Below are positions 22,499-54,544 of a DNA stretch of 64,000 nt, in pieces (the first letter of the stretch is position 1; each line of letters begins with the position of its first letter). The translations under genes and the position numbers were made by a program. The stretch lies in the NCBI GenBank assembly GCA_034620365.1, contig JAQGEQ010000281.1, positions 496,001-560,000 of the forward strand, read 5' to 3'. The notes below the pieces were generated by a model. That model searched no databases and was not told the DNA's origin. It saw only the letters and a program-made list of their open reading frames with translations. The DNA is from Pegea sp. RAD2-039 (taxonomy: Eukaryota > Chordata > Thaliacea > Salpida > Salpidae).

Positions 22499-22553
22499 GT
22501 AAGTTGGTTTGTAGGTAAGTCGAAAATTAACTTACCGAGAAACCAACTTACAG
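22499..22553 (+). repeat. 55-nt intron-shaped palindrome of sub-repeat B (representative)
   Basis: The segment starts GTAAGTTGGTTT and ends AAACCAACTTAC-AG. The two 12-nt ends are perfect reverse complements, and an inner pair GGTAAGT/ACTTACC extends the stem after a 3-nt internal loop. It therefore combines a consensus donor, a consensus acceptor and a nearly full-length hairpin. The same element appears once in every unit with very few changes. Its sub-repeat C sister is at 22813-22867. Resemblance to introner elements is inference. Confidence 0.7.
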
Positions 22554-25500
22554 ATTCGACAAAGTCTGATTAGATATCTTCTGATTGATTGAAGGTTTTT
22601 AAAAAATGCAAGAAGCAAAATCAATTTCATACATAGTAAGTTCTTTTATGCCAACTTTGCTATATTATAAACTATTTTTTTGTAAATAAGGTTTACGGAA
22701 GAAGAAATATGAAACATGTATTCGATTGTGTTCAAACAAATCAGTAGAAATAGAGGAAATAGAAATTAGACACAAGACTCCATGGTTTTCTAAAGAGTAG
22801 TGCAACTGAAGAGTAATTGGATTTGTAGGTAAGTTAAAAATTAACTTACCTATGAACCAACTTACAGATTCGACAAAGTCTGATTAGATATCTTCTGAAT
22901 GATTGGAGGTTTTTTAAGAAGAAGGTTTCATCGACACTTCAATCAATAAATTCAAATAAAATATAATTTGAATTATTAGAATTAATGAGGCAAAGAACAA
23001 GATGAAAATCAAAAGTTGGTATTTCAAAACAACCAAATAATAAATGTAATCTAACCTAATCAAAAAAGCTGCAAGTTAAAAAATAATCGAATTTAAAATT
23101 TGTTATTTGTATTTTGAAAATGTAAAAGTTTTTAACTTTAATTTATGAATTTATAATAGTTTCGAGAAATTCATTTTTCCTTATTACTATAGGCCTGAAA
23201 TAATTTGTTTAACTTGTTTGAGTATCCTTACAGGACTATCAATTCCCATAGAAGACAAAGAAATGATTTAACTTCTTCAAGAATTTATAAAATTATCCTC
23301 ATTCGATAATTATCCAGGATGTTTCAATCTTTCTTCAAGATGAAGCTTACTTAGAAAATCTAAAAAATAAGTGAATTGATAAAAAGTAGATATTTCAACT
23401 TAAAATAAAAGGATCTTGAAACTTTAACTCTTTGTTGATTTAAAATACAAATTACCGTAGCAGATCTTTAAAAATACATCTAAGGAGTTGAGAACTAAGA
23501 TCTTTTTATTTTCAGCCACTTGATGGAGATGGTTTCTGAAGATGTTTGTAGTTGAAGTTCTGTTCTTCCATTTTTGAACAAACAAGTAATAAACAAAAAC
23601 TGAAACTAAGCAAAAACCTTGCTGTTTTACTACAAGTCTAAAGAGTTGTGAAAATAGAGAGTAAGTTAGTTTGCAAGTAGGTTAAACATTAACTTATTTG
23701 TAAATTAACTTTCAGCTTCGCCCAATTTTACTCTAATTTGATCTCGTCTTAGTGATAGAAGGTTTGTCATAAACAGAAAATGTCGCTGCAAATTCAATTT
23801 CAGCTATCACCCAACAGTAAATGTTTAAATGGTAAGAATTTACTTCCCAACTTGCAGTGGTTGTGAACTTGTTTTTTGTACACAGTATTTTGCCGCAGAA
23901 GAAGATAAGAAAGAAAGAAAAAAAGAAAAATTTCAAACAAAATTGTCTTCAAACAAAATAATATAGAAAAAAAAAATTGGAAATAAGCGCAAGACTTGAA
24001 GATCTACTACAAGTCTAACGAGGAGTTCAAATAAAATGTAAGTTGATTTGTAGGTAAGTTGAAAATTAACTTACCGAGAAACCAACTTACAGATTCGACA
24101 AAGTCTGATTAGATATCTTCTGATTGATTGAAGGTTTTTAAAAAATGCAAGAAGCAAAATCAATTTCATACATAGTAAGTTTTTTATGCCAACTTTGCTA
24201 TGTTATAAACTATTTTTTTGTAAATAAGGTTTACGGAAGAAGAAATATGAAACATGTATTCGATTGTATTCAAACAAATCAGTAGAAATAGAGGAAATAG
24301 AAATTAGACACAAGACTCCATGGTTTTCTAACGAGTAGTGCAACTGAAGAGTAAGTGGATCTGTAGGTAAGTCGAAAATTAACTTACCTATGAACCAACT
24401 TACAGAATCGACAAAGTCTGATTAGATATCTTCTGAATGATTGGACGTTTTTTAAGAAGAAGGTTTCATCGACACTTCAATCAATAAATTCAAATAAAAT
24501 GTAATTTGAATTATTAGAATTAATGAGGCAAAGAACAAGATGAAAACCAAAAGTTGGTATTTCAAAACAACCAAATAATAAAATGAATCTAACCTAATCA
24601 AAAAAGCTACAAGTAAAAAATAATCAAATTTAAAATTTGTTATTTGTATTTTGAAAATGAAAAAGTTTTTAACTTTAATTTATGAATTTATAATAGTTTC
24701 GAGAAATTCATTTTTCCTTATTACTATATGCCTGAAATAATTTGTTTAACTTGTTTGAGTATCCTTACAGGACTATCAATTCCCATAGAAGACAAAGGAA
24801 AGATTTAACTTCTTAAAGAATAAATAAAATTATGCTCCTTTCGATAATTATCCAGGATGTTTCAATCTTTCTTCAAGATGAAGCTTACTTAGAAAATCAA
24901 AAAAATAAGTGAATTGATAAAAAGTAGATATTTCAGCTTAAAATAAAAGGATCTTGAAACTTTAACTCTTTGTTGATTTAAAATACAAATTACCGAAGCA
25001 GATCTTTAAAAATACATCTAAAGAGTTGAAAATTTAGATCTTTTTATTTTCAGCCACTTAATGGAGAAGGTTTCTGAAGATGTTTGTGGTTGAAGTTGTG
25101 ATCTTCCATTTTTGAACAAACAAGTAATAAACAAAAACTGAAACTAAGCAAAAACCCTTGCTGTTTTACTACAAGTCTAAAGAGTAGTGCAAATATAGAG
25201 TAAGTTAGTTTGCAAGTAAGTTTAAACATTAACTTATTTGTAAATTAACTTTCAGCTTCGCCCAATTTTACTCTAATTCGATCTCGTCTTAGTGATAGAA
25301 GGTTTGTCAAAAACAGAAGATGTCGCTGCAAATTCAATTTCAGCTATCACCCAACAGTAAAGGTTTACATGGTAAGAATTTACTTCCCAACTTGCAGTTG
25401 TTGTAAACTTGTTTTTTGTACACAGTATTTTGCCGCAGAAGAAGATAAGAAACAAAGAAAAAAAGAAAAATTTCAAACAAAATTGAGTTCAAACAAAATA

Positions 25501-28500
25501 ATATAGAAATAAAAATTGGAAATAAGCGCAAGATTTGAAGATCTACTACAGGTCTAACGAGGAGTTCAAATAAAATGTAATTTGGTTTGTAGGTAAGTCG
25601 AAAATTAACTTACCCAGAAACCAACTTACAGATTCGACAAAGTCTGATTAGATATCTTCTGAATGATTGAAGATTTTTAAAAAATTCAAGAAGCAAAATC
25701 AATTTCATACATAGTAAGTTCTTTTATGCCAACTTTGCTATGTTATAAACTATTTTTTTGTAAACAGGGTTTACGGAAGAAGAAATATGAAACATGTATT
25801 CGATTGTGTTCAAACAAATCAGTAGAAATAGAGGAAATACAAATAAGACACAAGACTCCATGGTTTTCTAACGAGTAGTGCAACTGAAGAGTAAGTGGAT
25901 TTGTAGGTAAGTCGAAAATTAACTTACCTATGAACCAACTTACAGAATCGACCAAGTCTGATTAGATATCTTCTGAATGATTGGAGGTTTTTTAAGAAGA
26001 AGGTTTCATCGACACTTCAATCAATAAATTCAAATAAAATATAATGTGAATTATTAGAATTAATGAGGCAAAGAACAAGATGAAAACCAAAAGTTGGTAT
26101 TTCAAAACAACCAAATAATAAATGTAATCTAACCTAATCAAAAAAGCTGCAAGTTAAAAAATAATCGAATTTAAAATTTGTTATTTGTATTTTGAAAATG
26201 TAAAAGTTTTTAACTTTAATTTATGAATTTATAATAGTTTCATGAAATTTATTTCTCCTTATTACTATAGGCCTGAAATAATTTGTTTAACTTGTTTGAG
26301 TATCCTTACAGGACTATCAATTCCCATAGAAGACAAAGGAAAGATTTAACTTCTTAAAGAATTTATAAAATTATCCTCTTTTCGATAATTATCCAGGATG
26401 TTTCAATCTTTCTTTAAGATGAAGCTTACTTAGAAAATCAAAAAAGAAATAAGTGAATTGATAAAAAGTAGATATTTCAACTTAAAATAAAAAGATCTTG
26501 AAACTTTAACTCATTGTTGATTTAAAATACAAATTACCGAAGCAGATCTTTAAAAATACATCTAAAGAGTTGAAAACTAAGATCTTTTTATTTTCAGCCA
26601 CTTGATGGAGAAGGTTTCTGAAGATGTTTGTAGTTGAAGTTGTGATCTTCCATTTTTGAACAAACAAGTAATAAACAAAAACTGAAACTAAGCAAAAACC
26701 CTTGCTGTTTTAATACAAGTCTAAAGAGTAGTGAAAATAGAGAGTAAGTTAGTTTGCAAGTAAGTTTAAAATTAACTTATTTGTAAATTAACTTTCAGCT
26801 TCGCGCAATTTTACTCTAATTCGATCTCGTCTTAGTGATAGAAGGTTTGTCATAAACAGAAAATGTCGCTGCAAATTCAATTTCAGCTATCATCCAGCAG
26901 TAAATGTTTACATAGTAAGAATTTACTTCCCAACTTGCAGTGGTTGTGAACTTGTTTTTGTATACAGTATTTTGCCGCAGTAGAAGATAAGAAACAAAGA
27001 AAAAATGAAAAATTTCAAACAAAATTGAGTTCAAACAAAATAATATAGAAATAAAAATTGGAAATAAGCGCAAGACTTGCAGATCTACTAAGAGTCTAAC
27101 GAGGAGTTCAAATAAAATGTAAGTTGGTTTGTAGGTAAGTCGAAAATTAACTTACCCAGAATCCAACTTACAGATTCGACAAAGTCTGATTAGTTATCTT
27201 CTGATTGATTGGAGGTTTTTAAAAAATGCAAGAAGCAAAATCAATTTCATACATAGTAAGTTCTTTTATGCCAACTTTGCTATATTATAAACTATTTTTT
27301 TGTAAACAGGGTTTACGGAAGAAGAAATATGAAACATGTATTTGATTGTGTTCAAACAAATCAGTAGAAATAGAGGAAATACAAATAAGACACAAGAATC
27401 CATGGTTTTCTAAAGAATAGTTCAACTGAAGAGTAAGTGGATTTGTAGGTAAGTTAAAAATTAACTTACCTATGAACCAACTTACAGATTCGACAAAGTC
27501 TGATTAGATATCTTCTGAATGATTGGAGGTTTTTTAAGAAGAAGGTTTCATCGAGACTTCAATCAATAAATTCAAATAAAATATAATTTGAATTATTAGA
27601 ATCAATGTGGCAAAGAACAAGATGAAAATCAAAAGTTGGTATTTCAAAATAACCAAATAATAAATGTAATCTAACCTAATTAAAAAAGCTGCAAGTTAAA
27701 AAATAATCGAATTTAAAATTTGTTATTTGTATTTTGAAAATGAAAAAGTTTTTAACTTTGATTTATGAATTTATAATAGTTTCGAGAAAATCATTTTCCT
27801 TATTACTATAGGCCTGAAATAATTTGTTTAACTTGTTTGAGTATCCTTACAGGACTATCAATTCCCATAGAAGACAAAGGAAAGATTTAACTTCTTAAAG
27901 AATTTATAAAATTATCCTCCTTTCGATAATTATCCAGGATGTTTCAATCTTTCTTCAAGATGAAGCTTACTTAGAAAATCAAAAAAATAAGTGAATTGAT
28001 AAAAAGTAGATATTTCAGCTTAAAATAAAAGGATCTTGAAACTTTAACTCATTGTTGATATAAAATACAAATTACCGAAGCAGATCTTTAAAAATACATC
28101 TAAAGAGTTGAAAATTTAGATCTATTTATTTTCAGCCACTTGATGGAGATGGTTTCTGAAGATGTTTGTAGTTGAAGTGGTGATCTTCCATTTTTGAACA
28201 AACAAGCATTAAACAAAAACTGAAACTAAGCAAAAACCCTTGCTGAATTACTACAAGTCTAAAGAGTTGTGAAAATAGCGAGTAAGTTAGTTTGCTAGTA
28301 AGTTTAAAATTAACTTATTTGTAAATTAACTTTCAGCTTCGCCCAATTTTACTCTAATTTGAACTCGTCTCAGTGATAGAAGGTTTGTCATAAACAGAAG
28401 ATGTCGCTGCGAATTCAATATCAGCTATCACCCAGCAGTAAATGTTTACATAGTAAGAATTTACTTCCCAACTTGCAGTGGTTGTGAACTTGTTTTTTGT

Positions 28501-31500
28501 ACACAGTATTTTGCCGCAGTAGAAGATAAGAAACAAAGAAAAAATGAAAAATTTCAAACAAAATTGAGTTCAAACAAAATAATATAGAAATAAAAATTGG
28601 AAATAAGCGCAAGACTTACAGATCTACTACAAGTCTAACGAGGAGTTCAAATAAAATGTAAGTTGGTTTGTAGGTAAGTCGAAAATTAACTTACCGAGAA
28701 ACCAACTTAGAGATTCGACAAAGTCTGATTAGATATCTTCTGATTGATTGAAGGTTTTTAAAAAATGCAAGAAGCAAAATCAATTTCATACATAGTAAGT
28801 TCTTTTATGACAACTTTGCTATGTTATAAACTATTTTTTTGTAAACAGGGTTTACGGAAGAAGAAATATGAAACATGTATTCGATTGTGTTCAAACAAAT
28901 CAGTAGAAATAGAGGAAATACAAATAAGAAACAAGAATCCATGGTTTTCTAAAGAGTAGTGCAACTGAAGAGTAAGTGGATTAGTAGGTAAGTTAAAAAT
29001 TAACTTACCTATGAACCAACTTACAGATTCGACAAAGTCTGATTAGATATCTTCTGAATGATTGGAAGTTTTTTAAGAAGAAGGTTTCATCGACACTTCA
29101 ATCAATAAATTCAAATAAAATATAATTTAAATTATTAGAATTAACGTGGCAAAGAACAAGATGAAAATCAAAAGTTGGTATTTCAAAACAACCAAATAAT
29201 AAATGTAATCTAACCTAATTAAAAAAGCGGCAAGTTAAAAAATAATCGAGTTTATAATTTGTTATTTGTATTTTGAAAATGAAAAAGTTTTTAACTTTAA
29301 TTTATGAATTTATAATAGTTTCAAGAAATTTATTTCTCCTTATTACTATAGGCCTGAAATAATTTGTTTAACTTGTTTGAGTATCCTTACAGGACTTTGA
29401 ATTCCCAAAGAAGACAAAGGAAAGATTTAACTTCTTAAAGAATAAATATAATTATCCTCCTTTCGATAATTATCCAGGATGTTTCAATCTTTCTTCAAGA
29501 TGAAGCTTACTTAGAAAATCAAAAAAGAAACAAGTGAATTGATAAAAAGTAGATATTTCAACTTAAAATAAAAGGATCTTGAAACTTTAACTCATTGTTG
29601 ATTTAAAATACAAATTACCGAAGCAGATCTTTAAAAATACATCTAAAGAGTTGAGAACTAAGATCTTTTTATTTTCAGCCACTTAATGGAGAAGGTTTCT
29701 GAAGATGTTTGTGGTTGAAGTTGTGATCTTCCATTTTCGAACAAACAAGTAATAAACAAAAACTGAAACTAAGCAAAAACCCTTGCTGTTTTAATACAAG
29801 TCTAAAGAGTAGTGAAAATAGAGAGTAAGTTAGTTTGCAAGTAAGTTTAAAATTAACTTATTTGTAAAATAACTTTCAGCCTCGCCCAATTTTACTCTAA
29901 CTTGATCTCGTCTCAGTGATAGAAGGTTTGTCATAAACAGAAGATGTCGCTGCAAATTCAATATCAGCTATCACCCAGCAGTAAATGTTCATATAGTAAG
30001 AATTTACTTCCCAACTTGCAGTGGTTGTGAGCTTGTTTCTTGTACACAGTATTTTGCCGCAGAAGAAGATAAGAAACAAAGAAAAAAAGAAAAATTTCAA
30101 ACAAAATTGAGTTCAAACAAAATAATATAGAAATAAAAATTGGAAATAAGCGCAAGACTTGAAGATCTACTACAAGTCTAACGAGGAGTTCAAATAAAAT
30201 GTAAGTTGGTTTGTAGGTAATTCGAAAATTAACTAACCCAGAAACCAACTTACAGATTCGACAAAGTCTGATTAGATATCTTCTGATTGATTGAAGGTTT
30301 TTAAAAAATGCAAGAAGCAAAATCAATTTCATACATAGTAAGTTCTTTTATGCCAACTTTGCTATGTTATAAACTATTTTTTTGTAAACAGGGTTTACGG
30401 AAGAAGAAATATGAAACATGTATTCGATTGTGTTCAAACAAATCAGTAGAAATTGAGGAAATAGAAATTAGAAACAAGACTCCATGGTTTTCTAACGAGT
30501 AGTGCAACTGAAGAGTAAGTGGATTTGTAGGTAAGTTAAAAATTAACTTACCTATGAACCAACTTACAGAATCGACAAAGTCTGATTAGATATCTTCTGA
30601 ATGATTGGAAGTTTTTTAAGAAGAAGGTTTTATCGACACTTCAATCAATAAATTCAAATAAAATATAATTTGAATTATTACAACTAATGAAGCAAAGAAC
30701 AAGATGAAAACCAAAAGTTGGTATTTCAAAACAACCAAATAATAAATGTAATCTAACCTAATCAAAAAAGCTGCAAGTTAAAAAATAATCAAATTTAAAA
30801 TTTGTTATTTGTATTTTGAAAATGTAAAAGTTTTTAACTTTAATTTATGAATTTATAATAGTTTCAAGAAATTCATTTTCCTTATTACTATTGGCCTGAA
30901 ATAATTTGTTTAACTTGTTTGAGTATCCTTACAGGACTATCAATTCCCATAGAAGACAAAGGAAAGATTTAACTTCTTAAAGAATAAATAAAATTATCCT
31001 CCTTTCGATAATTATCCAGGATGTTTCAATCTTTCTTCAAGATGAAGCTTACTTAGAAAATCAAAAAAAATAAGTGAATTGATAAAAAGTAGATATTTCA
31101 GCTTAAAATAAAAAGATCTTGAGACTTTAACTCTTTGTTGATTTAAAATACAAATTACCAAAGCAGATCTTTAAAAATTCATCTAAGGAGTTGAGAACTA
31201 AGATCTTTTTATTTTCAGCCACTTGATGGAGAAGGTTTCTGAAGATGTTTGTGGTTGAAGTTGTGATCTTCCATTTTTGAACAAACAAGCAATAAACAAA
31301 AACTGAAACTAAGCAAAAACCCTTGCTGTTTTACTACAAGTCTAAAGAGTTGTGAAAATAGAGAGTAAGTTAGTTTGCAAGTAAGTTTAATATTAACTTA
31401 TTTGTAAATTAACTTTCAGCCTCACCCAATTTTACTCTAATTCGATCTCGTCTTAGTGATAGAAGGTTTGTCATAAACAGAAGATGTCGCTGCAAATTCA

Positions 31501-34500
31501 ATTTCATCTAACAAGCAGCGGTAAATGTTTACATAGTAAGTTTTTACTTCCCAACTTGAAGTGGTTGTAAGCTTGTTTTTTGTACACAGTATTTTGCCGC
31601 AAAAGAAGATAAGAAAAAAAGAATTATTTCAAACAAAATTGAGTTCAAACAAACTAATAAAGAAATAAAAATTGTAAATAAGCGCAAGACTTGCAGATCT
31701 ACTAAGAGTCTAACGAGGAGTTCAAATAAAATGTAAGTTGGTTTGTAGGTAAGTCGAAAATTAACTTACACAGAAACCAACTTACAGATTCGACAAAGTC
31801 TGATTAGATATCTTCTGAATGATAGAAGGTTTTAAAAAAATGCAAGAAGCAAAATCAATTTCATACATAGTAAGTTCTTTTATGCCAACTTTGCTATGTA
31901 ATAAACTAATTTTTTGTAAACAGGGTTTACGGAAGAAGAAATATGAAACATGTATTCGATTGTGTTCAAACAAATCAGTAGAAATTGAGGAAATACAAAT
32001 AAGACATAAGAATCCATGGTTTCCTAAAGAGTAGTGCAACTGAAGAGTAAGTGGATTAGTAGGTAAGTAAAAAAATTAACTTACCTATGAACCAACTTAC
32101 AGATTCGACAAAGTCTGATTAGATATCTTCTGAATGATTGGAGGTTTTTTAAGAAGAAGGTTTGATCGACACTTCAATCAATAAATTCAAATAAAATATA
32201 ATTTGAGTTATTAGAATTAATGAGGCAAAGAACAAGATGAAAACCAAACGTAGGTATTTCAAAACAACCAAATAATTAATGTAATCTAACCTAATTAAAA
32301 AAGCTACAAGTTAAAAAATAATCGAATTTAAAATTTGTTATTTGTATTTTGAAAATGTAAAAGTTTTTAACTTTAATTTATGAATTTATATTAGTTTCAA
32401 GAAATTTATTTCACCTTTTAAAATATCACTACATGACTAAAAAATTTTACTATATGCCTGAAACAATTTTTGTAACTTGTTTGAGTATCCTTACAGGACT
32501 ATCAATTCCCATAGAAGACAAAGGAAAGATTTAACTTCTTAAAGAATTTATAAAATTATCCACCTTTCGATAATTATCCAGGATGTTTCAATCTTTCTTT
32601 AAGATGAAGCTTACTTAGAAAATCAAAAAAAATAAGTGAATTGATAAAAAGTAGAAATTTCAGCTTAAAATAAAAAGATCTTGAAACTTTAACTCTTTGT
32701 TGATATAAAATACAAATTACCGAAGCAGATCTTTAAAAATACATCTAAGGAGTTGAGAACTAAGATCTTTTTATTTTCAGCCACTTGATGGAGATGGTTT
32801 CTGAATATGTTTGTAGTTGAAGTTGTGATCTTCCATTTTTGAACAAATAAGCAATAAACAAAAACTGAAACTAAGCAAAAACCTTGCTGTTTTACTACAA
32901 GTCTAAAGAGTAGTGCAAATAGCGAGTAAGTTAGTTTGCAAGTAGGTTAAACATTAACTTATTTGTAAATTAACTTTCAGCTTCGCCTAATTTTACTCTA
33001 ATTTGATCTCGTCTTAGTGATAGAAGGTTTGTCATAAACAGAAAATGTCGCTGCAAATTCAATTTCAGCTATCATCCAACAGTAAATGTTTACATGGTAA
33101 GAATTTACTTCCCAACTTGCAGTGGTTGTGAAATTGTTTTTTGTACACAGTATTTTGCCGCAGAAGACGATAAGAAAGAAAGAAAAAAAGAAAAATTTCA
33201 AACAAAATTGTCTTCAAACAAAATAATATAGAAAAAAAAAATTGGAAATAAGCGCAAGACTTCAAGATCTACTACAAGTCTAACGAGGAGTTCAAATAAA
33301 ATGTAAGTTGGTTTGTAGGTAAGTCGAAAATTAACTTACCGAGAAACCAACTTACAGATTCGACAAAGTCTGATTAGATATCTTCTGATTGATTGAAGGT
33401 TTTTAAAAAATGCAAGAAGCAATATCAATTTCATACATAGTAAGTTCTTTTATGCCAACTTTGCTATGTAATAAACTATTTTTTTGTAAATAAGGTTTAC
33501 GGAAGAAGAAATATGAAACATGTATTCGATTGTGTTCAAAGAAATCAGTAGAAATAGAGGAAATAGAAATTAGACACAAGACTCCATGGTTTTCTAAAGA
33601 GTAGTGCAACTGACGAGTAAGTGGATTTGTAGATAAGTTAAAATTTATGAAATATGAAGCTTACTTAGAAAATCAAAAAAAAAACAAGTGAATTGATAAA
33701 AAGTAGATATTTCAGCTTAAAATAAAAAGATCTTGAGACTTTAACTCTTTGTTGATTTAAAATACAAATTACCAAAGCAGATCTTTAAAAATTCATCTAA
33801 GGAGTTGAGAACTAAGATCTTTTTATTTTCAGCCACTTGATGGAGAAGGTTTCTGAAGATGTTTGTGGTTGAAGTTGTGATCTTCCATTTTTGAACAAAC
33901 AAGTAATAAACAAAAACTGAAACTAAGCAAAAACCCTTGCTGTTTTACTACAAGTCTAAAGAGTTGTGAAAATAGAGAGTAAGTTAGTTTGCAAGCAAGT
34001 TTAAAATTAACTTTTTTGTAAATTAACTTTCAGCCTCACCCAATTTTACTCTAATTCGATCTCGTCTTAGTGATAGAAGGTTTGTCATAAACAGAAGATG
34101 TCGCTGCAAATTCAATTTCATCTAACAAGCAGCGGTAAATGTTTACATAGTAAGTTTTTACTTCCCAACTTGAAGTGGTTGTAAGCTTGTTTTTTGTACA
34201 CAGTATTTTGCCGCAAAAGAAGATAAGAAAAAAAGAATTATTTCAAACAAAATTGAGTTCAAACAAACTAATAAAGAAATAAAAATTGTAAATAAGCGCA
34301 AGACTTGCAGATCTACTAAGAGTCTAACGAGGAGTTCAAATAAAATGTAAGTTGGTTTGTAGGTAAGTCGAAAATTAACTTACCCAGAATCCAACTTACA
34401 GATTCGAAAAAGTCTGATTAGTTATCTTCTGAATGAGTGGAGGTTTTTTAAGAAGAAGGTTTCATCGACACTTCAATCAATAAATTCAAATAAAATATAA

Positions 34501-36345: not shown

Positions 36346-39300
36346 CTAAAATAAAATCAGAAATAGAAACGAAATAAGTAAAGAAAGAAAAAGAAAGAAA
36401 CCATTTGACGATATTAAAGAACTGCCAGCATTAGTTTTAGTTTCACCTTCCTTAGGTTTTTTATAAGGATCTTCGACACTTCGAGAGGTAGATACTTCTA
36501 CGTCTATAAAACTAAAAGTAGAAAGGCGTTTAGAATCAGAAAGAGGTTTTCCAGATAGTGACAAATTCCTCCTAGTATCAGCTGAACCTTCACTTGTCGA
36601 CTCCGTAGAAAGATGAGGTCTAGAAGCAGGAATATCTTCTCCAGATACTGACAAATTCCTCCTAGTATCAGCTGAACGTTCACTTGTCGACTCCGTAGAA
36701 AGATGAGGTCTAGAAGCAGGTATATCTTCTACAGATAATGACAAATTCCTCCTAGTATCAGCTGAATCTTCACTTGTCGACTCCGTAAAAAGATGAGGTC
36801 TAGAAGCAAGAATATCTTCTCCAGATACTGACAAATTCCTCCTAGTATCAGCTGAACGTTCACTTGTCGACTCCGTAAAAAGATGAGGTCTAGAAGCAGG
36901 AATATCTTCTCCAAATACTGACAAATTCCTCCTAGTATCAGCTGAACGTTCACTTGTCGACTCCGTAGAAAGATGGGGTCTAGAAGCAGGAATATCTTCT
37001 CCAGATAGTGACAAATTCCTCCTAGTATCAGCTGAATCTTCACTTATCGATTCAGTAGAAAGATAAGATCTAGAAGCAGGAATATCTTCTCCAGATAGTG
37101 ACAAATTCCTCTTAGTATCAGCTGAACCTTCACTTGTCGACTCCGTAGAAAGATAAGATCTAGAAGCAGGAATATCTTCTCCAGATAGTGACAAATTCCT
37201 CTTAGTATCAGCTGAACCTTCACTTGTCGACTCAGTAGAAAGATGAGCTCTAGAAGCAGAAATATATTCTCCAGAACCTGATATGTCGATCATAGGGACT
37301 GATGACTCCTCATTAATCAAATCAATTGAAAGATGAAGTCTCGAATCCGAACTATCTTCTCCAGAACCTGATCTTTCGATCATTGGGCCTGATGACTCCT
37401 CATTAATCAAATCAATTGAAAGATGAAGTCTCGAATCCGAACTATCTTCTCCAGAACCTGATCTTTCGATCATAGGGCCTGATGACTCCTCATCAATCAA
37501 ATCAATTGAAAGATGAAGTCTCGAATCCGAAAGATGATCTCCAGACACTGACAAATTCCTCCTAGTATCAGCTGAACGTTCACTTGTCGACTCCGTAGAA
37601 AGATGAGGTCTAGACGCAGGAATATCTTCTCCAGATACTGACAAATTCCTCCTAGTATCAGCTGAACCTTCACTTGTCGACTCAGTAGAAAGATGAGCTC
37701 TGGAAGCAGAAATATATTCTCCAGAACCTGATATGTCGATCATAGGGACTGATGACTCCTCATCAATCAAATCAATTGAAAGATGAAGTCTCGAATCCGA
37801 ACTATCTTCTCCAGAACCTGATCTTTCGATCATTGGGCCTGATGACTCCTCATTAATCAAATCAATTGAAAGATGAAGTCTCGAATCCGAACTATCTTCT
37901 CCAGAACCTGACCTTTCGATCATAGGGCCTGATGACTCCTCATCAATCAAATCATTTGAAAGATGTAGTCTCGAATCCGAACTATCTTCTCCAGAACCTG
38001 ATCTTTCGATCATAGGGCCTGATGACTCCTCATCAGTCAAATCATTTGAAAGATGAATTCTAGAATCCGAGTTATCTTCTCCAGAACCTAATATGTCGAT
38101 CATAGGGCCTGATGACTCCTCATCAATCAAATTATTTAAAAGATGTAGTCTTGAATCCGAACTATCTTCTCCAGAACCTGATATATCGATCATAGTGCCT
38201 GATGACTCCTCATCAATCAAATCATTTGAAAGATGAAGTCTCGAATCCGAACTATCTTCTCCAGAACCTGATATATCGATCATAGGGCCTGATGACTCCT
38301 CATCAATCAAATCATTTGAAAGATGAAGTCTCGAATCCGAACTATCTTCTCCAGAACCTGATATGTCGATCATTGGGCCTGATGACTCCTCATCAATCAA
38401 ATCAATTGAAAGATGAAGTCTCGAATCCGAAAAATCTATTCCAGAACCTGATTTGTCGATCATAGTGCCTGATGACTTCTCATCAATCAAATCATTTGAA
38501 AGATGATATCTTGAATCCGAAATATCTTCTCCAGAACCTGATATGTCGATCTCAGGGCCTGATGTCGTCTCATCAATCAATCTATTTAAGAGATGAGGTC
38601 TCGAATCCGAACTATCTTCTCCAAAACCTGATATACCGATCATAGTGCCTGATGACTCCTCATCAATTAAATCATTTAAAAGATGAAGTCTCGAATCCGA
38701 ACTATTTTCTCCAGAACCTGATATATCGATCATAGGGCCTGATGACTCTTCATCAATCAAATTATTTGAAAGATGATATCTTGAATCCGAACTATCGTTT
38801 CCAGAACCTGATATGTCGATCATAGTGTCTGATGACTCCTCATCAATCAAATCTATTGAAAGATGAAGTCTCGAATCCGAACTATCCTCTCCAGAACCTG
38901 ATATACCGATCATAGTGCCTGATGACTCCTCATCAACCAAATCTTTTAAAAGATGAAGTCTCGAATCCGAAATATCTTCTCCAGAACCTGATTTGTCGAT
39001 CATAGGGCCTGATGACACCTCATCAATCAAATCAATTGAAAGATGAAGTCTCGAATCCGAAATATCTTCTCCAGAACCTGATATATTGATCATAGTGCCT
39101 GATGACTCCTCATCAATCAAATCAATTGAAAGATGAAGTCTCGAATCCGAAATATCTTCTCCAGAACCTGATATGTCGATCATAGGGCCTGATGACTCCT
39201 CATCAATCAATCCATTTAAAAGATGAGATATCGAATCCGAACTATCTTCTCCAGAACCTGAGATGTCGATCATAGGGCCTGATGACTCCTCATCAATCAA

Positions 39301-41555
39301 ATCAATTGAAAGATGAAGTCTCGAATCCGAGTTATCTTCTCCAGAACCTGATATACCGATCATAGTGCCTGATGACTCCTCATCAATCAAATCATTTGAA
39401 AGATGAAGTCTCGAATCCGAACTATCTTCTCCAGAACCTGATATATCAATCATAGGGCCTGATGATTCCTCATCAATCAAATCAATTGAAAGATGATATC
39501 TCGAATCCGAAATATCTTCTCCAGAACCTGATTTTTCGATCATAGGGCCTGATGACTCCTCATCAATCAAATTATTTGAAAGATGATGTCTCGAATCCGA
39601 ACTATCTTCTCCAGAACCTGATATATCAATCATAGGGCCTGATGACTCCTCATCAATCAAATCAATTGAAAGATGATATCTCGAATCCGAACTATCTTCT
39701 CCAGAACCTGATATATTGATCATAGTGCCTGATGACTCCTCATCAATCAAATTATTTGAAAGATGATATCTCGAATCCGAACTATCTTCTCCAGAACCTG
39801 ATATATTGATCATAGTGCCTGATGACTCCTCATCAATCAAATCAATTGAAAGATGATATCTCGAATCCGAACTATCTTCTCCAGAACCTGATCTTTCGAT
39901 CATAGGGCCTGATGACTCCTCATCAATCAAATTATTTGAAAGATGATGTCTCGAATCCGAACTATCTTCTCCGGAACCTGATATATCGATCATAGGGCCT
40001 GATGACTCCTCATCAATCAATCCATTTAAAAGATGAAGTCTCGAATCCGAGATGTCTTCGCCAGAACCTGATATATCGATCATAGGGCCTGATGACTCCT
40101 CATCAATCAAATTATTTGAAAGATGATGTCTCGAATCCGAAATATCTTCTCCAGAACCTGATATATCGATCATAGTGCCTGATGACTCCTCATCAATCAA
40201 ATTATTTGAAAGATGAAGTCTCGAATCCGAACTATTTTCTCCAGAACCTGATATATCGATCATAGTGCCTGATGACTCCTCATCAATCAAATTATTTGAA
40301 TGATGATGTCTCGAATCCGAACTATTTTCTCCAGAACCTGATATATTGATCATAGTGCCTGATGACTCCTCATCAATCAAATCATTTGAAAGATGAAGTC
40401 TCGAATCCGAACTTTCTTCTCCGGAACCTGATATATCGATCATAGGGCCTGATGACTCCTCATCAATCAATCCATTTAAAAGATGAAGTCTCGAATCCGA
40501 GATATCTTCGCCAGAACCTGATATACCGATCATAGGGCCTGATGACTCCTCATCAATCAAATCATTTTTAAGATGTAGTCTAGAATCCGAACTATCTTCT
40601 CCAGAACCTGATACATCGATCGTAGGGCCTGATGACTCCTCATCAATCAAATCAATTGAAAGATGAAGTCTCGAATCCGAAAGATGATCTCCAGACACTG
40701 ACAAATTCCTCCTAGTATCAGCTGAACGTTCACTTGTCGACTCCGTAGAAAGATGAGGTCTATAAGCAGGAATATCTTCTACAGATACTGACAAATTCCT
40801 CCTAGTATCAGCTGAACCTTCACTTGTCGACTCCGTAGAAAGATGATGTCTATAAGCAGGAATATCTTCTACAGATACTGACAAATTCCTCCTAGTATCA
40901 GCTGAACCTTCACTTGTCGACTCCGTAAAAAGATGAGGTCTAGAAGCAGGAATATCTTCTACAGATACTGACAAATTCCTATTAGTATCAGCTGAACCTT
41001 CACTTGTCGACTCCGTAGAAAGATGAGGTCTATAAGCAGGAATATCTTCTCCAGATAGTGACAAATTCCTCTTAGTATCAGCTGAACCTTCACTTGTCGA
41101 CTCCGTAGAAAGATGAGGTCTATAAGCAGGAATATCTTCTACAGACAGTGACAAATTCCTCTTAGTATCAGCTGAACCTTCACTTGTCGACTCCGTAGAA
41201 AGATGAGGTCTATAAGCAGGTATATCTTCTGTAGAATCTGATATGTCGATCATAGGTCCAGATAACTCCTCATCAATCGATTCAGTGAAGAGATAAAGTA
41301 TAGAATCATAGAGATCTTTACCAGATTGTAAGATATCCATTTTAGTGTCAAATGATTCCTCTGGACTGTATAAACTATCTTCCGAAATGTTGTCAGAATT
41401 GAGTAGTTTTCCAGTTGATGTCTGAAAGCGAAGAAGAGAAATTAGTTTACTGTTTAGATTAAAATTTTAGAACTTACCATTTGATGTGTAAGTAGTTTTT
41501 CCTTGTGTAAGGCAAACACAAGTTCCAAAGCCATTAGAATTTTGAAAAAATTCAT
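36346..41555 (-). CDS. Secreted, GPI-anchor-like, 30-residue-repeat acidic protein (putative proteoglycan core)
   Basis: Two exons: 41478-41555 (26 codons) and 36346-41421, with a 56-nt GTAAGT..TTTCAG intron in phase 0, giving 1,717 residues. The first exon encodes a hydrophobic leader (MNFFKILMALELVFALHKEK), a plausible signal peptide. Residues 60-1649 are 53 tandem 30-residue repeats without one indel. Type B (36 copies) carries SDSRLHL, LIDEESSGPM and SGSGED; type A (16) carries PAYRPHLSTESTSEG and ADTRRNLS; the first repeat is degenerate. The last 18 residues are hydrophobic after KTNAGSSLISSN, fitting GPI-anchor addition. SGSG occurs at 34 repeat junctions beside acidic residues, the usual setting for glycosaminoglycan attachment. 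So an extracellular, surface-tethered proteoglycan or mucin-like coat protein is inferred. No globular domain is visible and I know no named homologue. Confidence 0.85.
36553..41322 (-). repeat. 53-copy 90-bp coding tandem repeat
   Basis: Repeat n starts at 41322 minus 90(n-1). Order is one degenerate repeat, A x6 (2-7), B x33 (8-40), A x2 (41-42), B x3 (43-45), A x8 (46-53). The same A-to-B junction repeat (GDHLSDSRLHLS) occurs at 8 and 43, and the same B-to-A junction repeat (GEYISASRAHLS) at 41 and 46. Repeats 39-41 and 44-46 are nearly identical, pointing to a recent 450-bp (five-repeat) duplication. Confidence 0.9.
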
Positions 41556-42779
41556 TTTGTAATCTTTATAATTGTTTTGCACAAAACTTTTATAATTCTA
41601 AAAAAAAAGTTATCTTTCTGATGTTACTTTTTTTATTCATTTTATTCATTTTAACAAAATATATAGAAATCTATTTTAACAGATTTCAGGAAAAGTCGAG
41701 AAGCTTACCAACATTCCAAGGAAACAACTAACATCTTTACTAAGTTTCTTATTGAAGTAACTCAAGCTGCTGAAACTTCTAAGAAAGCTCTTAAAAGCAA
41801 GGTTCAGTTTGTGAATAATCAGTCGATGGCAAATAGTAGAAAATAAGTGAATTTCTATCTACCTCTCGCTAACACACATTTTCACAAAGAACATCTATTA
41901 GTTAGAAATATAAAAGGCAAAAGATGTAACACAGATGGAATTTCAGTAGTTTGTAAAGGAAATTACAATGAACAGTTTTACATATATTAGTATAAGTTTT
42001 AAAAAAAGGAAAAATTCACAGTTTAGAAGTTGTAATTTGGTTAAATTTAGATTAAAATTTTTAATAAAATAAGAAATATTTTTAAAGTTTGAAAGAATAT
42101 TCAATATAATAAAATTATAATTAGTTTCTATATCTATAAAACTATACATAAACTATTTTTCAACAGTGTTACTTTGGTATTTTTGAAAGGTTATTAATTT
42201 AGGTTTCTTGATATCAACCTATATAAAAAAAATAACAGAAAAATAAATCAGATCTACATTAAAATTTAAACAGGTTAATTTTGAAAGATTATATAAAAAG
42301 ATAGTAGAGAAAAGATTCAAGAAGTGAAAAACGCTGAAATAACTAAATACGAACTGAACTCACAAAAAACATTTAAATTGTATCTGTGAACGCAACTTGA
42401 AGTGTACACAGCAGAAGAGATATCAAAATGACCATATTTTTGAAAATGAACCATTAAAGAACACGTGGAGTTACAAAATAAAATATAACATTGTAAATAA
42501 GATTTTACATTAATAAATTTAGCTATAACTTGTCTTACAAATAAATAACTTGCAAAAGCTAGACTAAATCACTATAGTATGATAAAAAAAAATTATTTTA
42601 TCAGAAAAAACTTTGAATAAAGGAAAACAAAATGTGATTATTATTATTATTAAAACGTGATAAAACCTTACAAACACAAAAATCTTTTTTACAGTTTTGA
42701 AAATATAAAAACTTTTCAAAAATTATATGTTTAAATTAAAATGTTGTATATATGTATAATATTGAATAACAATCTGTTG
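41556..42779. other. Promoter side of the repeat-protein gene; AT-rich spacer
   Basis: The minus-strand gene starts at 41555, so its promoter should lie here, but I see no confident TATA or initiator. About 41855-41930 (cctctcgctaacacac..) recurs at 59070-59115 and weakly near 2084, a small dispersed repeat. No other feature. Confidence 0.5.
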
Positions 42780-44024: not shown

Positions 44025-45440
44025 ATATTCTGTAAATGATCAAATTAACAGGGTTAGAAAAGTTGACTGAATAACATTATGGAATAATACTTTTTCCATA
44101 AAAGCATTCTAGTCAATAAAAAAACAAACTAAATATAAACTTAGTGACATATTAAAATATAATAAATAATAAAATAACAATTTACATTTAACTTTATTTT
44201 TCAAACTTAAAAATTATATCTAGAAAAATAAAAATCATTATGAAAAATTGTTTCATCAAAGTATTTTTGGATGTTAAATTATTTGTAGAAGAAACTTTTT
44301 GAAATTAAAGAATCTACCAACTGATATTAACTCTGTAACATTTAAAAATAATTAAAAAATGGTTTGCTTAAATTATTAAAAGTTATAAAACTTTTAATTA
44401 ACTAAAAATTAATGGTGAGTCAAGGCCTTATTGAAGGTTCTGAAGAGTGTTGTGTGTCCTGAGTTATATATTTTGGGGGATTTTAATTTTGGTAAAATTG
44501 ATTGGAATAACCCGAATTTAGCATTTAGTGGAAAATCGTTTCACTTGGAAGTGATAATTATAATTCAGCCTTTCTAAGTCATGACTTTGTAAGCTTCCTC
44601 AATGCCAATAACCTATCTCAGATGGTTACTTTTCCGACCCAAGTTAGTGGTAATACTTTGGATCTTCTTATCACATCAAAACCTGAGAACATTATCTACG
44701 TTGATCAAAAAGAACCTTTTGCTCTGTCCGATCGCAATATGATTGAATTCAAACTCCATCAAACTTTTTTTATGAACGTTAAAACTTCAAGCAAAGGAAT
44801 TTTTACTGTGGAAATTGTGATGGTATTAACAAGTTTCTATCAGATGTTGACTGTATTTTTGTCTTTAACTCTTCCGAAGACATCAATACTATTTACTCCT
44901 TAAATATTACTTCCTCTTTATAACTACCTTTATCGCTTTTCTTTAACATGACTCTGAGGCGAGGAAAAGTTCCACAAATTTAAAAAAAAAGCTATTATTA
45001 CTCCAATTTATAAAAATGTTCCCAGAAACACTTCACTTAACTACAGACCAGTTTCGCTGACTTCAGTTATCTGCAGAACTCAAGAGCATATCATTCACAA
45101 TTATATGACCAGTCATTTGATGGAGCACCATCTAATATCTGATGTCAAACATGACTTTGTGAAACGAAGATCTTCCCTGACCCAACATCTCACTTTTCGT
45201 AATGAGCTTACAGCCCATTATGAATGTAATACTCCCTGTGACATCATATATCTCGATTTTGCTAAAGCGTTTGGTTTTGTCCCGCACACTAAGCTCGTTA
45301 CTGTATTGAAAAACTTAAAAACCAACAACTTTATCTTACAGTGGATTGAAGACTACTTATAAGGTAGAACCCAACAAACTCGTGTAGAAAGATCTTTATC
45401 TACTTCTAGTCAAATCACTAGTGGTGTTCCTCATATTTCG
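44025..45440 (+). mobile_element. CR1/Jockey-type LINE fragment, internally deleted
   Basis: The endonuclease part reads YILGDFNFGKIDW at about 44456 and continues FLNANNLSQMVTFPTQ and SGNTLDLLIT (44600-44670), the typical C-terminal half of a LINE AP-endonuclease (GDFN..DW, SD.N). The reverse-transcriptase part follows at 44940-45440: YRPVSLTS, DIIYLDFAKAF and ITSGVP, with an in-frame TAA at 45359-45361. Compared with the copy at 54.5 kb, about 300 bp between endonuclease and reverse transcriptase are missing, and everything after SGVP, including the FADD box, is gone. Not mobile. The 5' limit is uncertain; 44025-44490 also exists inverted at 15767-16245. Confidence 0.8.
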
Positions 45441-46414: not shown

Positions 46415-49315
46415 ATGACTGAAGTAAGTTTATTATTTTTATTCTTGGACTATTTATTTACTTCTTTTTTATATTAATAAAGTTATGTTCAGTAATTAAA
46501 GTATTTTTTACAATTTTTTAATAATTTAAAATGAAAACAAACAAGTTAATTTTAATGTAAACAAAACAACTAACTATTTAGTTTATTTATTTGTTATAGT
46601 GTGGAGAAACTATTTTAACTAATAAAAGCTTGAATAAAAAAGCTCTAACATGGTTCATTTCATTTGATAAACCAAATGAACATCCAAATAACAATAAAAT
46701 TCATCAAAAGGTTTGCTACTTAGTCTAATTTAAGTAATTATTTTATCTTTTGAATATTGTAATTTTTGTAAGAATATATTTTTAACATATCTAGTATTGT
46801 AAGTACTTTCACATAATTATAAATTTGCTGTTTAACTAAATGTTAATTATAAATGTATCTATTAAATAATTAAATCATCTAGTAATTAACTGCTAAAAAA
46901 ACTCAAAACGTTAAATTGTACATTTAACAAAACTAACATTAATTTAAATAACTTAAATAAATAAACAACTTTTAAATAAAAATGATTTTTTATTCAGAGT
47001 TTTTCGATGGCAGAGTTTTTTAGATCTGTCTACATAAGATTTCCGGTAAGAATAATTTTCTGAAAACAATTTTGAGAATATTTAGTTATTAATAATCATT
47101 AGATACTCAGAAAAACTTTATTGATAATATAAAGTATCACATAAATCATTAGAAAATGAAAATTTAGAAAATCAAAAGTTAGATATAAAAAGTTAAGTTT
47201 TTTTAAATGGTATAATTTTTATAGAACTGAAAAATTTTTATTAAAAACGAATAATTATTAAAAAATTTCATTAAAATATAAATTTGCTAACTAAAAATTT
47301 TTCTTCAGGTTAAATATGGCGACCGAATGTCAAGTAAGTGTTTATCTAACTAATATTATATTTCAAGCTTCTAAATTTGTAGAAATTTTGTAAGCTTAAA
47401 TTGTTGTTGTATCTTACTAACTATAATAAAACTATCTGACAAGAATGATTATAAAAATTAGTTTCTTGATTTGATATTTAAAACTATTTTCAATTTTAGT
47501 TCATTCTATTCAAGTTGAGTTGTTTGAAAATATTCATCTTCAAATGAAACAAACTGATGTTTTGATGGTGATTAAAAGTTCTTTTTTTATTAAAAGTTCT
47601 TTTCTTAAATTCTTTTAATGCTGTTCAAAATGCTTCTATAGTAACTTAAATAATTATGTTTTTTTAAAAAAAAAATAGAATAATAAAAACTTTTTCTAAC
47701 AATAATAGAAATAGAATAACTATACAATTTCTGATTAGTGATGATTAATTTATTTGTGTTTAGACTTTTACTAATTCTATGCAATAATTATTTTACAGAA
47801 TATTAACATCTGGAAAACCTTTACAACCAGCAGTAAGTTTTTTTTTTTGTTTCTAGAATAAGTTGTTATTTAATCAAGTCCAGAATCAATTTTATTACAA
47901 TTTTGTAATCAATTTTTATAGTTTAACAAGAGATCTTTTTTATTAATGTTTAAAAGAACTTTTACAAAATAATACTTTAAGATTTGGTTTGACTTAACTT
48001 CACTAACTAATATTTTGTTAATTTTTTCAGTAAATGCAGAGCAAATGACATTAGATGATTATATAACAGTCAAAGTAAGTTTGCACTGATATAAACTACA
48101 ATTGTTGTATATCCAATTTATATCCTTAAAAATGCAAATACTAAACAAAACGTTTAATTAAAAAGATTAAATGTTTTCATTTACTTAATAATTTTATCAA
48201 AGTTACTTTTTGGTACAAGTTTTGTCCGTTTTAAATATTTGTTTTAACTTACAGTGCAACCAAATGGTTTCTAGAAAACTTTTAAAGAAGCAACTAAATG
48301 TAAGTTTTGCTTCAATTGTAGAAAAGTTTTCTTTTATCTTTCTTATTATTAAGAAATTTTGATTTAGTTTAAAGGCTTTAATTTAACTTTTTTCTAACAA
48401 CTTAACAACGGTAAAAGTAAAAGATATTAATTTTGTTTTAAACTAGTGTGCAGCAGAAACTTAAGCAGAAACTTAAAATATACAAAAAGATAAAAGTTTA
48501 TTCAATTTTGAGATATTGAGAACATTAAACGGTTGAATTAATTTTTTCTAGGTTTAATATTTAATATTTGTTAACAGGTTGTTGCTAACAGAAATGTTAT
48601 TTTCATGAATACCAAAACGTTTAAGACGTTGTACTCAAGATTGAATGTAAGCAACGATAAAGATTACAAGAAAATTGATGATTTAAATGTAAGTAGTAAT
48701 TTTTATTATACTCTGCAATAACTTTGATTCTTAATTAATATCTAAGTTGTTAAATCATAAAACAAAATGTTTTTTGAAAAAGCTTCACAACTTTCAGGAA
48801 ATAAAAAACGATGAAACGCTTAAAATACGAGAAATAGAAGAAGTTAAAATCAAATCAATCCTTAAACAAAGACTTGTTGATGAAAATATTAATGATAAAA
48901 CTGTAAGTATCAACTAAACTTCAGTTTGGATTGTTATTAGTTCCAAAATAAAATTGATTTAATTTATCTTTTTGTAAATTTATTGTTGTTAATTAAATGT
49001 TTATTTGTAATATAAATAGATAATAGCAAAAGAAATGAAACATATCAAGTTCACTCCAGAAATTAAAAGGAAATATGTAAGTTTCAATTATTTAATTATT
49101 ATTTTGTTTATAATCTTTGATTTATTGGCTTTCAGAGATGGAAGAGGTTTAAGAAATGTCTTTTAAACTTTGTCACTTTGAAATGTTTTCGAAGAAGTAA
49201 GTTGAAAGATTTCTTAGATTTTTATATTTAGTAACTTTTGATATTTTTTTCAGAAAAAAGAGGTTATGATTTCGACTTTAGATTTGAAAGTTTAGATTAT
49301 TATTATTATTTTTGA
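46415..49315 (+). CDS. Thirteen-exon protein of unknown function (apparently intact copy)
   Basis: Coding exons: 46415-46423, 46600-46710, 46998-47045, 47309-47333, 47500-47567, 47799-47832, 48031-48074, 48255-48299, 48578-48688, 48798-48902, 49020-49076, 49136-49196, 49254-49315. All phases agree and the frame stays open from ATG to TGA, giving 259 residues; the exon at 47500 has a weak donor (gtgatt). Exons are 9-111 nt. The protein starts MTECGETILTNKSL, has a Lys/Glu-rich helical middle (KIREIEEVKIKSILKQRL), a basic patch (YRWKRFKKC) and an acidic-aromatic tail (YDFDFRFESLDYYYYF). No signal peptide or known domain is recognised. A 5' untranslated leader is probable at 45980-45995 and 46345-46414. 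The chain of small exons recalls micro-exon genes in form only. Confidence 0.7.
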
Positions 49316-49784
49316 AACTTTTGTGTTGTTTGCGTTAATATTTAATAAAAATAAAAATCATTACAAGTCTTTTGTGATCTTTTTTAAAGTTATAACTATT
49401 AAAAAAGGTTTATTCTTGAGATTTAAGCAATTTGCTAACAGGATTTATGCAATTTATTACAACTTTTATGTTTTTCTTACAATATTTAACATGTAATATA
49501 AACTGATAAGAAAGCTTTCTAATTAAAAAATAAAATTTTTAAAAAGTAGATTCCTTTGTTTTAAAATAATTTTTTTCTTGTAACGGTTTATCAGTATTCT
49601 TTTGTTGCTAATTATTGGCGCTGTTCAAATATTAGTTTAATGTCAAATAATTACTTTAATGTTTTGTTCAATTTAATGGATATATTTGAGTATCTATAAA
49701 TTGCTTAAAATATTTAGTTATATGTCGATTACGTTTTACTCTACAATTCATCTTTACTTTAAACAGTTTAATTTACAATAAGAG

Positions 49785-50030
49785 AGGCCTACTTCGGCCA
49801 AGAGCGGTCATGCGGGTTGTGTGCTTTCTATCCTTTATTTGTTTGCAGAATTGAAAGCGCCATTCGGAGCGATCCTCTGCGATATCCTCCTAATTTCTGG
49901 TATTGATATTGAGCGATTTCATAATGCAGTTGCAAGTATTGTTAAAGCAAACTTTTATTCTTAACTTATACTCTTAAAATAGTAAAAACGGTTTTTGTGT
50001 TTCGAGCACAGGTGGACACATAATAACGAA
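49785..50030 (+). repeat. Conserved GC-richer island downstream of the 13-exon gene, copy 1
   Basis: Begins GAGGCCTACTTCGGCC, which folds as a GGCC/GGCC hairpin, and continues through a stretch rich in CG dinucleotides to 'gtttcgagcacaggtgg'. Copies lie at 56551-56785 and 63243-63475, and part of it lies inverted at 42780-42905. It is much better conserved than the AT-rich DNA around it. After a tttgcag acceptor-like site the frame reads APFGAILCDILLISGIDIER and stays open in the 63-kb copy, so a 3' exon, a separate small gene or an RNA gene are all possible. Confidence 0.6.
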
Positions 50031-51071
50031 ACGCTCACAAAAACCCTGTTAATAAAATCGCTTGAAGCTATTATCCTTATTATTTTCTTCATATTTTTAT
50101 GCAGAAAAACTTGCTTCTGTGTTTTGCTTCATCATTTTTTATAAACTTTGATAAAATGATTATTTTTAGTAGCTTTTTGCTCAAATTGTAATATAAACTC
50201 TGTTTTTCACATTAAGTTTTAAGGCTTCCTTGCTTTTTCGACCTGCTGTGAGTCGGAAGGGTTTTGTAATCGACTTGATTTGGATCTTGGTATGATAATT
50301 TACGTCAGCAAGTTTTATAAGGAGTTTTGATGGCTTTGACTGGAAATAATCACCAAGAGCTTTGTTTAGCTTATTTATAGCTTAGTAATATTATGATAGA
50401 AAATTATTCAAAATTGGCAAAAAGCGAATGAAGAAACCTTCACGAAAAGCTTTAGATTATAGCCGAGTGTTGTTTACTGATTATCTTGTCTGTAAAATTG
50501 CAGATTAAAAAATCAAGCATGTTGGTTAAGCGAATATTATGAAATATTAAAAGAAATGAGAACATAAAAGTTATGAAATGGTTGACTGGTTGATTGATTT
50601 ACTAGTTACTGAGACATGTTTACTGGTAGCCAACGGAAGCTTTTATTAGTTTACTTTCGTTTTACGATTATTAATCGCAAAAAGACATCTTCATCGTTTG
50701 ATTTTCTTTACTTGATCCTCATTACTTGATCCTCATCAATTGATCTTCATCTGATAGTTCACGAGGTGGTTCAGGAGGTGGTTTAAATGAAATGGTGTAT
50801 TATTGGTCAAAATATTTGTTATAAACTTAATGAACTTTTATTCTTAAATAACCAGAATCAAAAAAGTTCTGATTTGATGATTAAAATAAAACTCTAAATT
50901 CTAACAAAATTTTTTCTACTTTCTAAATTATCAAACAATTAAAAAACATGAAAATATTTCTGTAGGAACATTTTGATATTGATCTGAATGTTTTTGAAAA
51001 TAAACACGACCTCAAAAGCAACTTTATACTGAAAATAAACTTCACAGCAGTCTACTAGTAAAGTTGATTTA
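50031..51071. other. Tail of the 4.8-kb duplicated block, then spacer
   Basis: 50031-50560 matches 63480-64000 and ends the visible duplication. At about 50704-50753 there are four imperfect copies of an 11-bp 'tgatcctcatc'-type repeat, the motif that forms the long minisatellite at 57.3 kb. No gene. Confidence 0.6.
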
Positions 51072-53847: not shown

Positions 53848-54544
53848 TTGGATCCAATTAAAGATTTCAGAAAAAAAAAATATATAGGAAGTATATGTAT
53901 ACGTATATATATACTGTTGATGAAACTGCTAAGGATAATATCTAGTATATCTCATAAAACAAATGTAGAATTTTATATAAAAATAATCAAAGAATTTACT
54001 ATATATAGAATTACAATTATAAAAAACAAAAATTCTAGAAACTTTACAACTATGAACATAAATTAAATAAATGTAATTCATTCTAGAAAACCAGTTCTTT
54101 GGTTGATGTAGCTAAAATTAATCAAAATGTATAATATAACAAATACTAAAATAAATCTAATATCAATAGAATATCCTCAAAAGTTAATAGATAAGTATTA
54201 AAGCATTATTTAATAACTGAAAAATGTTGATATTTTAAAGATTAAATATAAATACAAAAATTTAAATGTAAAAAATTATTCAACAAATCAACAATTGTTT
54301 GACTTTACTTGGTGTGAGTCGCCAGCTTGTTTATATAATGTTTATGGAAAAGCAATATAAAAAGTTAGCTTAATGTGAGATCTCAAATACCTCTCAAAAG
54401 AACCCAATAAATAAAAACACATTTGCCCATATATTTAAAGAATTTATAGTATTTGAAAAACCTCCTATACTAATAAACTAAGATAGACCCTTCCATTAAA
54501 TCTCTGTACAAAGATCTTTGTATAGTTTACAAGAAATCTATTTT
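53848..54544. other. AT-rich spacer, likely BTB-Kelch promoter
   Basis: The BTB-Kelch gene starts at 53847 on the minus strand, so its promoter should lie here. A TA-rich run (53880-53915) is visible. No gene is supported. Confidence 0.5.

Follow-up and report, generated by a model that had tools for sequence, protein, structure and literature searches.

A two-exon gene on the minus strand of a 64,000-nucleotide stretch of the Pegea sp. RAD2-039 genome (GenBank contig JAQGEQ010000281.1, positions 496,001 to 560,000; the whole stretch is called the window below, and its gene the window gene) appears to encode a secreted, glycosylphosphatidylinositol (GPI)-anchored, extended surface protein, and the chances are slightly better than even that this protein is a brush-like proteoglycan core in the glycocalyx or apical matrix. 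Such a core is the best single explanation, carrying just over half of our confidence, ahead of readings as a phosphoprotein, a mucin-like protein, or a structural spacer or coat. We infer that the protein would be secreted, would receive a GPI anchor and sugar chains, and would act in the glycocalyx.

Gene model, repeat array and ends

Read directly, the window gene consists of two exons that encode 1,717 residues in total. An earlier reading made from the letters alone (the sequence-only reading) had given its coordinates, strand, splice and length, 53 repeats of 30 residues, and 34 occurrences of SGSG; re-reading confirms all of these. The parts of the gene are as follows, with positions counted within the window and other places in the genome given by contig label (e.g. 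C182).

Exon 1: 41555-41478 (41478..41555), minus strand; encodes MNFFKILMALELVFALHKEKLLTHQM, signal-peptide-like; homologous exon at C182, C195, C50:629291, C220 and C221
Intron: 41477-41422 (41422..41477), minus strand; 56 bp, GT-AG (GTAAGT...TTTCAG), phase 0
Exon 2: 41421-36346 (36346..41421), minus strand; single open frame of 1,691 residues plus stop
N-terminal non-repeat part of exon 2: 41308..41421, minus strand; 38 residues
Tandem array: 36538..41307, minus strand; 53 units of 30 residues (16 A-type, 37 B-type), with no stop and no indel
C-terminal segment: 36346..36537, minus strand; charged linker, NAGSSLISSNG, 17-residue uncharged hydrophobic end FFLFLSLLISFLFLILF, stop

The remaining five frames of the exon 2 stretch carry 60-217 stops each. 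The intron has an alignable, identically placed counterpart in the C182 paralogue, and a GTAAGTTC donor occurs at the matching place in C50:629291, C220 and C221. The proposed splice gains support from these paralogues, which keep exon 1 and the intron elsewhere in the genome; they support the splice and both ends of the predicted gene model better than a lone sequence could. A T-rich tract at window positions ~41598-41608 (minus strand), which ends in TTTTTTTAG about 42 bases before the ATG, is common to the C182 paralogue and could be the splice acceptor of a 5' leader.

The array has a period of 90 bp, and the three Tandem Repeats Finder rows that cover it show 0% indels. A-type units (n = 16) have the consensus ASRPHLSTESTSEGSADTRRNLSVSGEDIP (STEST...NLSVSGEDIP), and B-type units (n = 37, including one degenerate first unit) the consensus DSRLHLSNDLIDEESSGPMIDISGSGEDSS (...DEESSGPMIDISGSGEDSS). 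SGSG, found 34 times, is part of the B consensus and not of the A consensus. Beside the SGSG pair each B unit has a third Ser-Gly (SG) site, DEESSG, making three; most A units have one. Among the 36 regular B units the DEESSG site is intact in 33, and each of the other two sites in 35.

The 115 SG dipeptides of the window protein compare with 32.5 +/- 4.7 when its residues are shuffled 2,000 times, a roughly 3.5-fold excess that is far beyond composition. The sequence-only reading had placed SGSG next to acidic residues. In a count over all SG, 81 of the 115 sites are acceptor-like (an uncharged residue at -1 and an acid at -4 to -2), against 11.4 in shuffles, and 29 have three acids at -4 to -2, against 0.23. 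The array carries a net charge of -243. Exon 2 as a whole has no Cys and no Trp (with Ser 397, Thr 72 and Pro 54 of 1,691 residues), and falls on the disordered side of the charge-hydropathy line.

Exon 1 is hydrophobic, its best 10-residue hydropathy being 2.49. At the other end the protein reads KTNAGSSLISSNG, then 17 uncharged hydrophobic residues and a stop, with no cytoplasmic tail. A GPI signal is classically laid out, under omega-site rules, as a small-residue stretch before a hydrophobic end; an omega-like small-residue site, a spacer and an uncharged hydrophobic end are here present as a sequence layout (NAGSSLISSNG plus 17 residues). An ad hoc GPI-tail rule, written after the window sequence had been seen, was applied to the window and eight loci. 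Of their 849 open frames with 40 residues or more it passes a single one, that of the window gene, and it passes no paralogue tail. Secretion and a GPI tail are likely properties of the predicted protein.

A family of paralogues with conserved ends

When the exon-1 DNA pattern is searched with up to 3 mismatches against the genome (105.7 Mb in 387 contigs), it is found in six places: the window gene, C182, C195, C50:629291, C220 and C221 (reversed control, 0). The C195 copy of the exon is identical to that of C182, and C50:629291 lies on the window's own contig, ~92 kb away. The arrangement of signal-peptide-like exon, intron, and second exon with Ser-Gly and acidic residues recurs on that contig and at C182, C195, C220 and C221. 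At C182, for example, the exon MKTFLKILIVLELVLIFHTEESVSDQV precedes an intron, also of phase 0 and alignable with that of the window gene, and a second exon that contains DDLSGSGDDFSGSGDGFSGYGDDLSGSG, TTTAGSSSISS and a hydrophobic tail. C50:629291 is a compact gene with a similar exon 1, intron and tail around GLSGTGDGLSGPEDGLSGSGDGSGDG. In protein searches the last 70 residues of the window gene match related tails on C182 and C195, and a motif of the TNAGSSLISS / TTAGSSSISS type with a hydrophobic end is seen in five aligned sequences and at C50:629291; T(N/T)AGSSxISS plus a hydrophobic tail is common to most paralogues. A 70-residue query from the N-terminal end of exon 2 has all 45 of its listed matches inside the window gene.

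Long LSGPEDG arrays with the tail are also found at C182:88 kb and C198:61 kb. Their frames are broken, and among the matches listed for the loci examined neither has an exon 1 that convinces. Weak tail-search matches at C43 (E 0.24) and C198:50268 (E 0.53), and a further match at C198:80654 (E 0.001), are not counted as members; a match at C1 (E 0.65, one stop) sits among unrelated frames and was dropped. Inverted pairs of family copies occupy C182:9000-18900 and C195:41000-50500, the C195 pair being near-identical to that of C182 and perhaps an unmerged haplotype.

Every family member read has Ser-Gly beside acid, though the repeat units differ. Acceptor-like sites out of all SG sites are:

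Window gene: 81/115
C182, minus-strand copy: 7/8
C182, plus-strand copy: 1/2
C50:629291: 4/5
C220: 3/5
C221: 3/5
C198, frame-broken array read frame by frame: 24/27 and 15/15
C182:88 kb, frame-broken array read frame by frame: 22/25 and 2/2

By inspection, a 7-residue SG spacing is common to the B unit of the window gene and the small members (SGPMIDISGSG and SGPEDGLSGSG). Since the B unit keeps this spacing, we infer, from inspection and with no statistic attached, that the 30-residue unit may have grown around two ancestral SG modules. Exon 1 has a ratio of nonsynonymous to synonymous differences (pN/pS) of 0.27-1.08 between paralogues over 9 of 10 pairs, with one undefined. To judge from such comparisons, the family evolves fast, conserving its composition and its ends rather than exact sequence. 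The existence of a family of GPI-tailed, Ser-Gly-array proteins, taken as a sequence object, is well supported.

A proposed proteoglycan core and competing readings

The genome encodes a Xylo_C xylosyltransferase domain (3.7e-43; 0 of 14 control genomes match), and one exon of the gene has a PDB match to human xylosyltransferase 1 (6.8e-14). Eight matches to Glyco_transf_64 (EXT-type) occur on C32, C4 and C1. According to PMC5992326, Xylo_C is a hallmark of glycosaminoglycan xylosyltransferases, which need Gly or Ala after the acceptor Ser, tolerate an uncharged residue at -1, and generally prefer acids. The two sets of matches therefore make a glycosaminoglycan pathway likely to be present in this genome, and heparan synthesis plausible. 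The Ser-Gly sites of the window protein, with their acids, fit the preferences of the enzyme (PMC5992326), as the sequence-only reading had supposed.

In the proposed mechanism, exon 1 would direct the window protein into the endoplasmic reticulum, and the C-terminal NAGSS and hydrophobic tail would be exchanged for a GPI anchor. The tandem array would offer dozens of acceptor serines to a Golgi xylosyltransferase, which may prime a part of the Ser-Gly sites; there are three of these to a B unit and one to most A units. Extension of the primed serines by chondroitin or heparan would then produce a highly charged, hydrated bottlebrush. How many chains a family member carries would depend on its number of repeats, which varies widely: small members that have exon 1 hold about 3-7 acceptor-like sites, the window gene about 81.

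A number of observations weigh against this proteoglycan reading. The attachment motif E/D-G/A-S-G occurs in 0 of the 115 SG sites; it is a stringent motif reported for C. elegans, describing the set of that species and not all animals, and PMC8418075 calls assignment by motif only ambiguous. The 30-residue unit is not found elsewhere in the genome (14 of 14 DNA matches fall inside the window gene), and the SG excess of the small members is modest, 2-8 against 1.0-2.6 in shuffles. At the ends, a Glu lies in mid-core of the signal-peptide-like exon in all five copies translated, and C220 and C221, though they retain exon 1 and Ser-Gly, have no AGSS motif at the end. Most array residues are not under strong purifying selection: the mean pairwise Nei-Gojobori ratio of nonsynonymous to synonymous substitution rates (dN/dS) within the array is 1.23 for A units and 0.85 for B units, near neutrality, and pN/pS for paralogue tails ranges from 0.11 to 0.99 over 14 of 15 pairs (one undefined). 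Two features fit rival readings taken up below, namely the 32 occurrences of SGSGE and the N-glycosylation sequon that all 16 A units carry. Finally, AlphaFold2 run without an alignment on the last 429 residues draws a beta-solenoid over the last twelve units, with a mean predicted local distance difference test score of 70.9 (48.5-70.9 across five models), and models a C-terminal helix at residues 411-428 of 429 after a low-confidence linker. The solenoid is given little weight, and a beta-solenoid fold is not accepted, because AlphaFold2 also draws confident solenoids for random perfect repeats, a known artefact class (PMC11795689).

The earlier proposal of a surface proteoglycan is supported in part. 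The signal exon (kept by paralogues), the splice, the tail (recurring in most of them), the Ser-Gly/acid sites and the Xylo_C enzyme speak for it; the missing stringent motif, and at C220 and C221 the missing AGSS, speak against. Its further claim that no globular domain is present has the support of sequence searches for exon 2. A PDB sequence search with exon 2 returns nothing up to E 1, and the only Pfam match, DUF7465, scores 26.4 bits where the cut-off is 27 and is taken as chance, no stretch passing alone; the modelled solenoid, of the artefact class just named, stands on the other side.

Several known kinds of protein share features with the window protein. Glypicans share the combination of a GPI anchor and Ser-Gly sites, but the window protein has no Cys in exon 1 or exon 2. 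With none in exon 2 there is no Cys-rich globular domain, and Pfam finds no glypican match there up to E 0.1. Identity with glypicans is accordingly rejected, and the unlikeness to them asserted by the sequence-only reading holds. Serglycin, too, has a core made up mostly of Ser-Gly repeats, with its chains in clusters, but it is small, is stored in granules or secreted, and has no GPI tail, whereas the window protein sets its Ser-Gly in 30-residue acidic units over 1,717 residues and ends in a GPI-like tail; identity with serglycin is rejected on size, units and tail. Dentin-type phosphoproteins share acidic Ser/Asp repeats, and differ from the window protein in its frequent Gly after Ser and its GPI-like tail. 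By description there is a likeness to the chondroitin proteoglycans CPG-3, -4, -7, -8 and -9 of C. elegans, whose cores are listed with low-complexity or disordered regions and without vertebrate homologue (PMC11632948); that paper has 0 occurrences of 'GPI', while the window protein has a GPI-like tail.

Among the rivals, a GPI-anchored secretory phosphoprotein is unlikely, if the least so. In that case Ser-Gly-Glu-Asp and Ser-Ser-Asp-Ser would be phosphorylated by a Golgi kinase of the Fam20C or CK2 type, giving a coat that is acidic and binds calcium, comparable to dentin phosphoprotein, in which glycosaminoglycan chains would be few or absent. S-x-E is the recognition pattern of secretory kinases and fits the 32 SGSGE sites, EDSSDS resembles dentin-type repeats, and the strongly negative charge of the array suits such a coat. 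What phosphorylation leaves unexplained is the Gly directly after Ser in paralogues with other repeats (LSGPEDG, LSGSGDD); xylosyltransferase needs Gly or Ala at +1 (PMC5992326). The kinase is not known to have such a need. Somewhat less probable again is a mucin-like GPI protein, with O-linked N-acetylgalactosamine on Ser/Thr-rich units, N-glycans on A units, and no glycosaminoglycan. The Ser and Thr content of exon 2 and the sequon in every A unit would suit it, but Thr (72) and Pro (54) are low for a mucin, while Ser-Gly stands in 3.5-fold excess over shuffles and recurs beside acid in paralogues. We assign the same low probability as to the mucin to a third rival, a repetitive surface protein whose array serves as a structural spacer or coat, whether or not it truly folds into a beta-solenoid. 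Here Ser-Gly would merely be inherited from an ancestral 7-residue LSGPEDG module and would have no sugar role, a view consistent with near-neutral change within the array, with the SG spacing that the B unit shares with paralogues, and with the modelled solenoid. The artefact noted above takes weight from the last of these, and in B units the SG columns rank with the most conserved (mean 0.98 against 0.86 for other columns, one-sided P 0.056).

Two further readings come last in probability. A precursor cleaved at dibasic sites in its A units to release repeated peptides is highly improbable: 15 of 16 A units do have a dibasic pair, but 0 of 36 regular B units do, the A consensus lacks a Gly right before the pair, and a GPI-like tail makes little sense for such a protein. 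Least probable of all is a non-functional, expanded minisatellite with an accidental open frame. It would explain a unit-level dN/dS near 1 and the frame breaks in the related arrays at C182:88 kb and C198:61 kb. Against it, 53 units run without stop or indel, although the nonsense test is weak (stop absence is mildly informative in B units, with 2.7-3.7 expected and P 0.02-0.07, and uninformative in A units, with 1.0-1.3 expected), and paralogues share exon 1, the splice sites and the tail.

Surroundings of the gene and significance of the family

Other features of the window, and related observations in the genome, are these:

19711-33647: tandem array, ~1.54-kb unit in about nine copies of ~94-95% identity by self-comparison; short open frames on both strands, two of them tested without a Pfam match
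44529-45362 and 54477-55393: fragments like non-LTR (long terminal repeat) reverse transcriptase; RVT_1 match in the single frame tested, 54965-55393
45538 and 55850: two equal-scoring transfer RNA genes
46845-50537 and 60360-64000: segmental duplication of ~94% identity; pieces of the region are also present on C198 and C182
51072-53598: Kelch and BTB exons, minus strand; a close copy (96% over 1,189 bases) adjoins the frame-broken Ser-Gly array at C182:84-93 kb
57371-58079: degenerate minisatellite of GATGAAGATCA type with periods of 11, 17 and 22 bp, apparently non-coding; considered as a relative of the repeat array and rejected

The telomere pattern has 81 forward and 7 reverse matches in the genome (control, 0), the rows listed reading TTAGGG except one that starts TTAGGT; such a repeat is not what most nematodes or arthropods have. 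COX1 gives no match in the genome, while 8 of 14 control genomes do give one. An arthropod cuticle family has no match in the genome; no control genome matched either, so that result is uninformative.

Among the titles and abstract openings listed in a search of the literature, none describes a Ser-Gly-repeat core that is GPI-anchored and lacks a globular domain; the search does not cover most subscription journals, and novelty is unproven. More tentative than the reading of the window gene itself, and short of an even chance, is the proposal that its paralogues make up a fast-evolving family of GPI-anchored proteoglycan cores without any globular domain, in which glycosaminoglycan valency is tuned by repeat copy number. 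If true, this would be a type of proteoglycan that homology searches would miss, since its ends are conserved while the Ser-Gly array between them is interchangeable, and its repeat copy number would encode how many chains it carries. The family would then provide a natural series, from short arrays to long, for asking how many acceptor sites are used.

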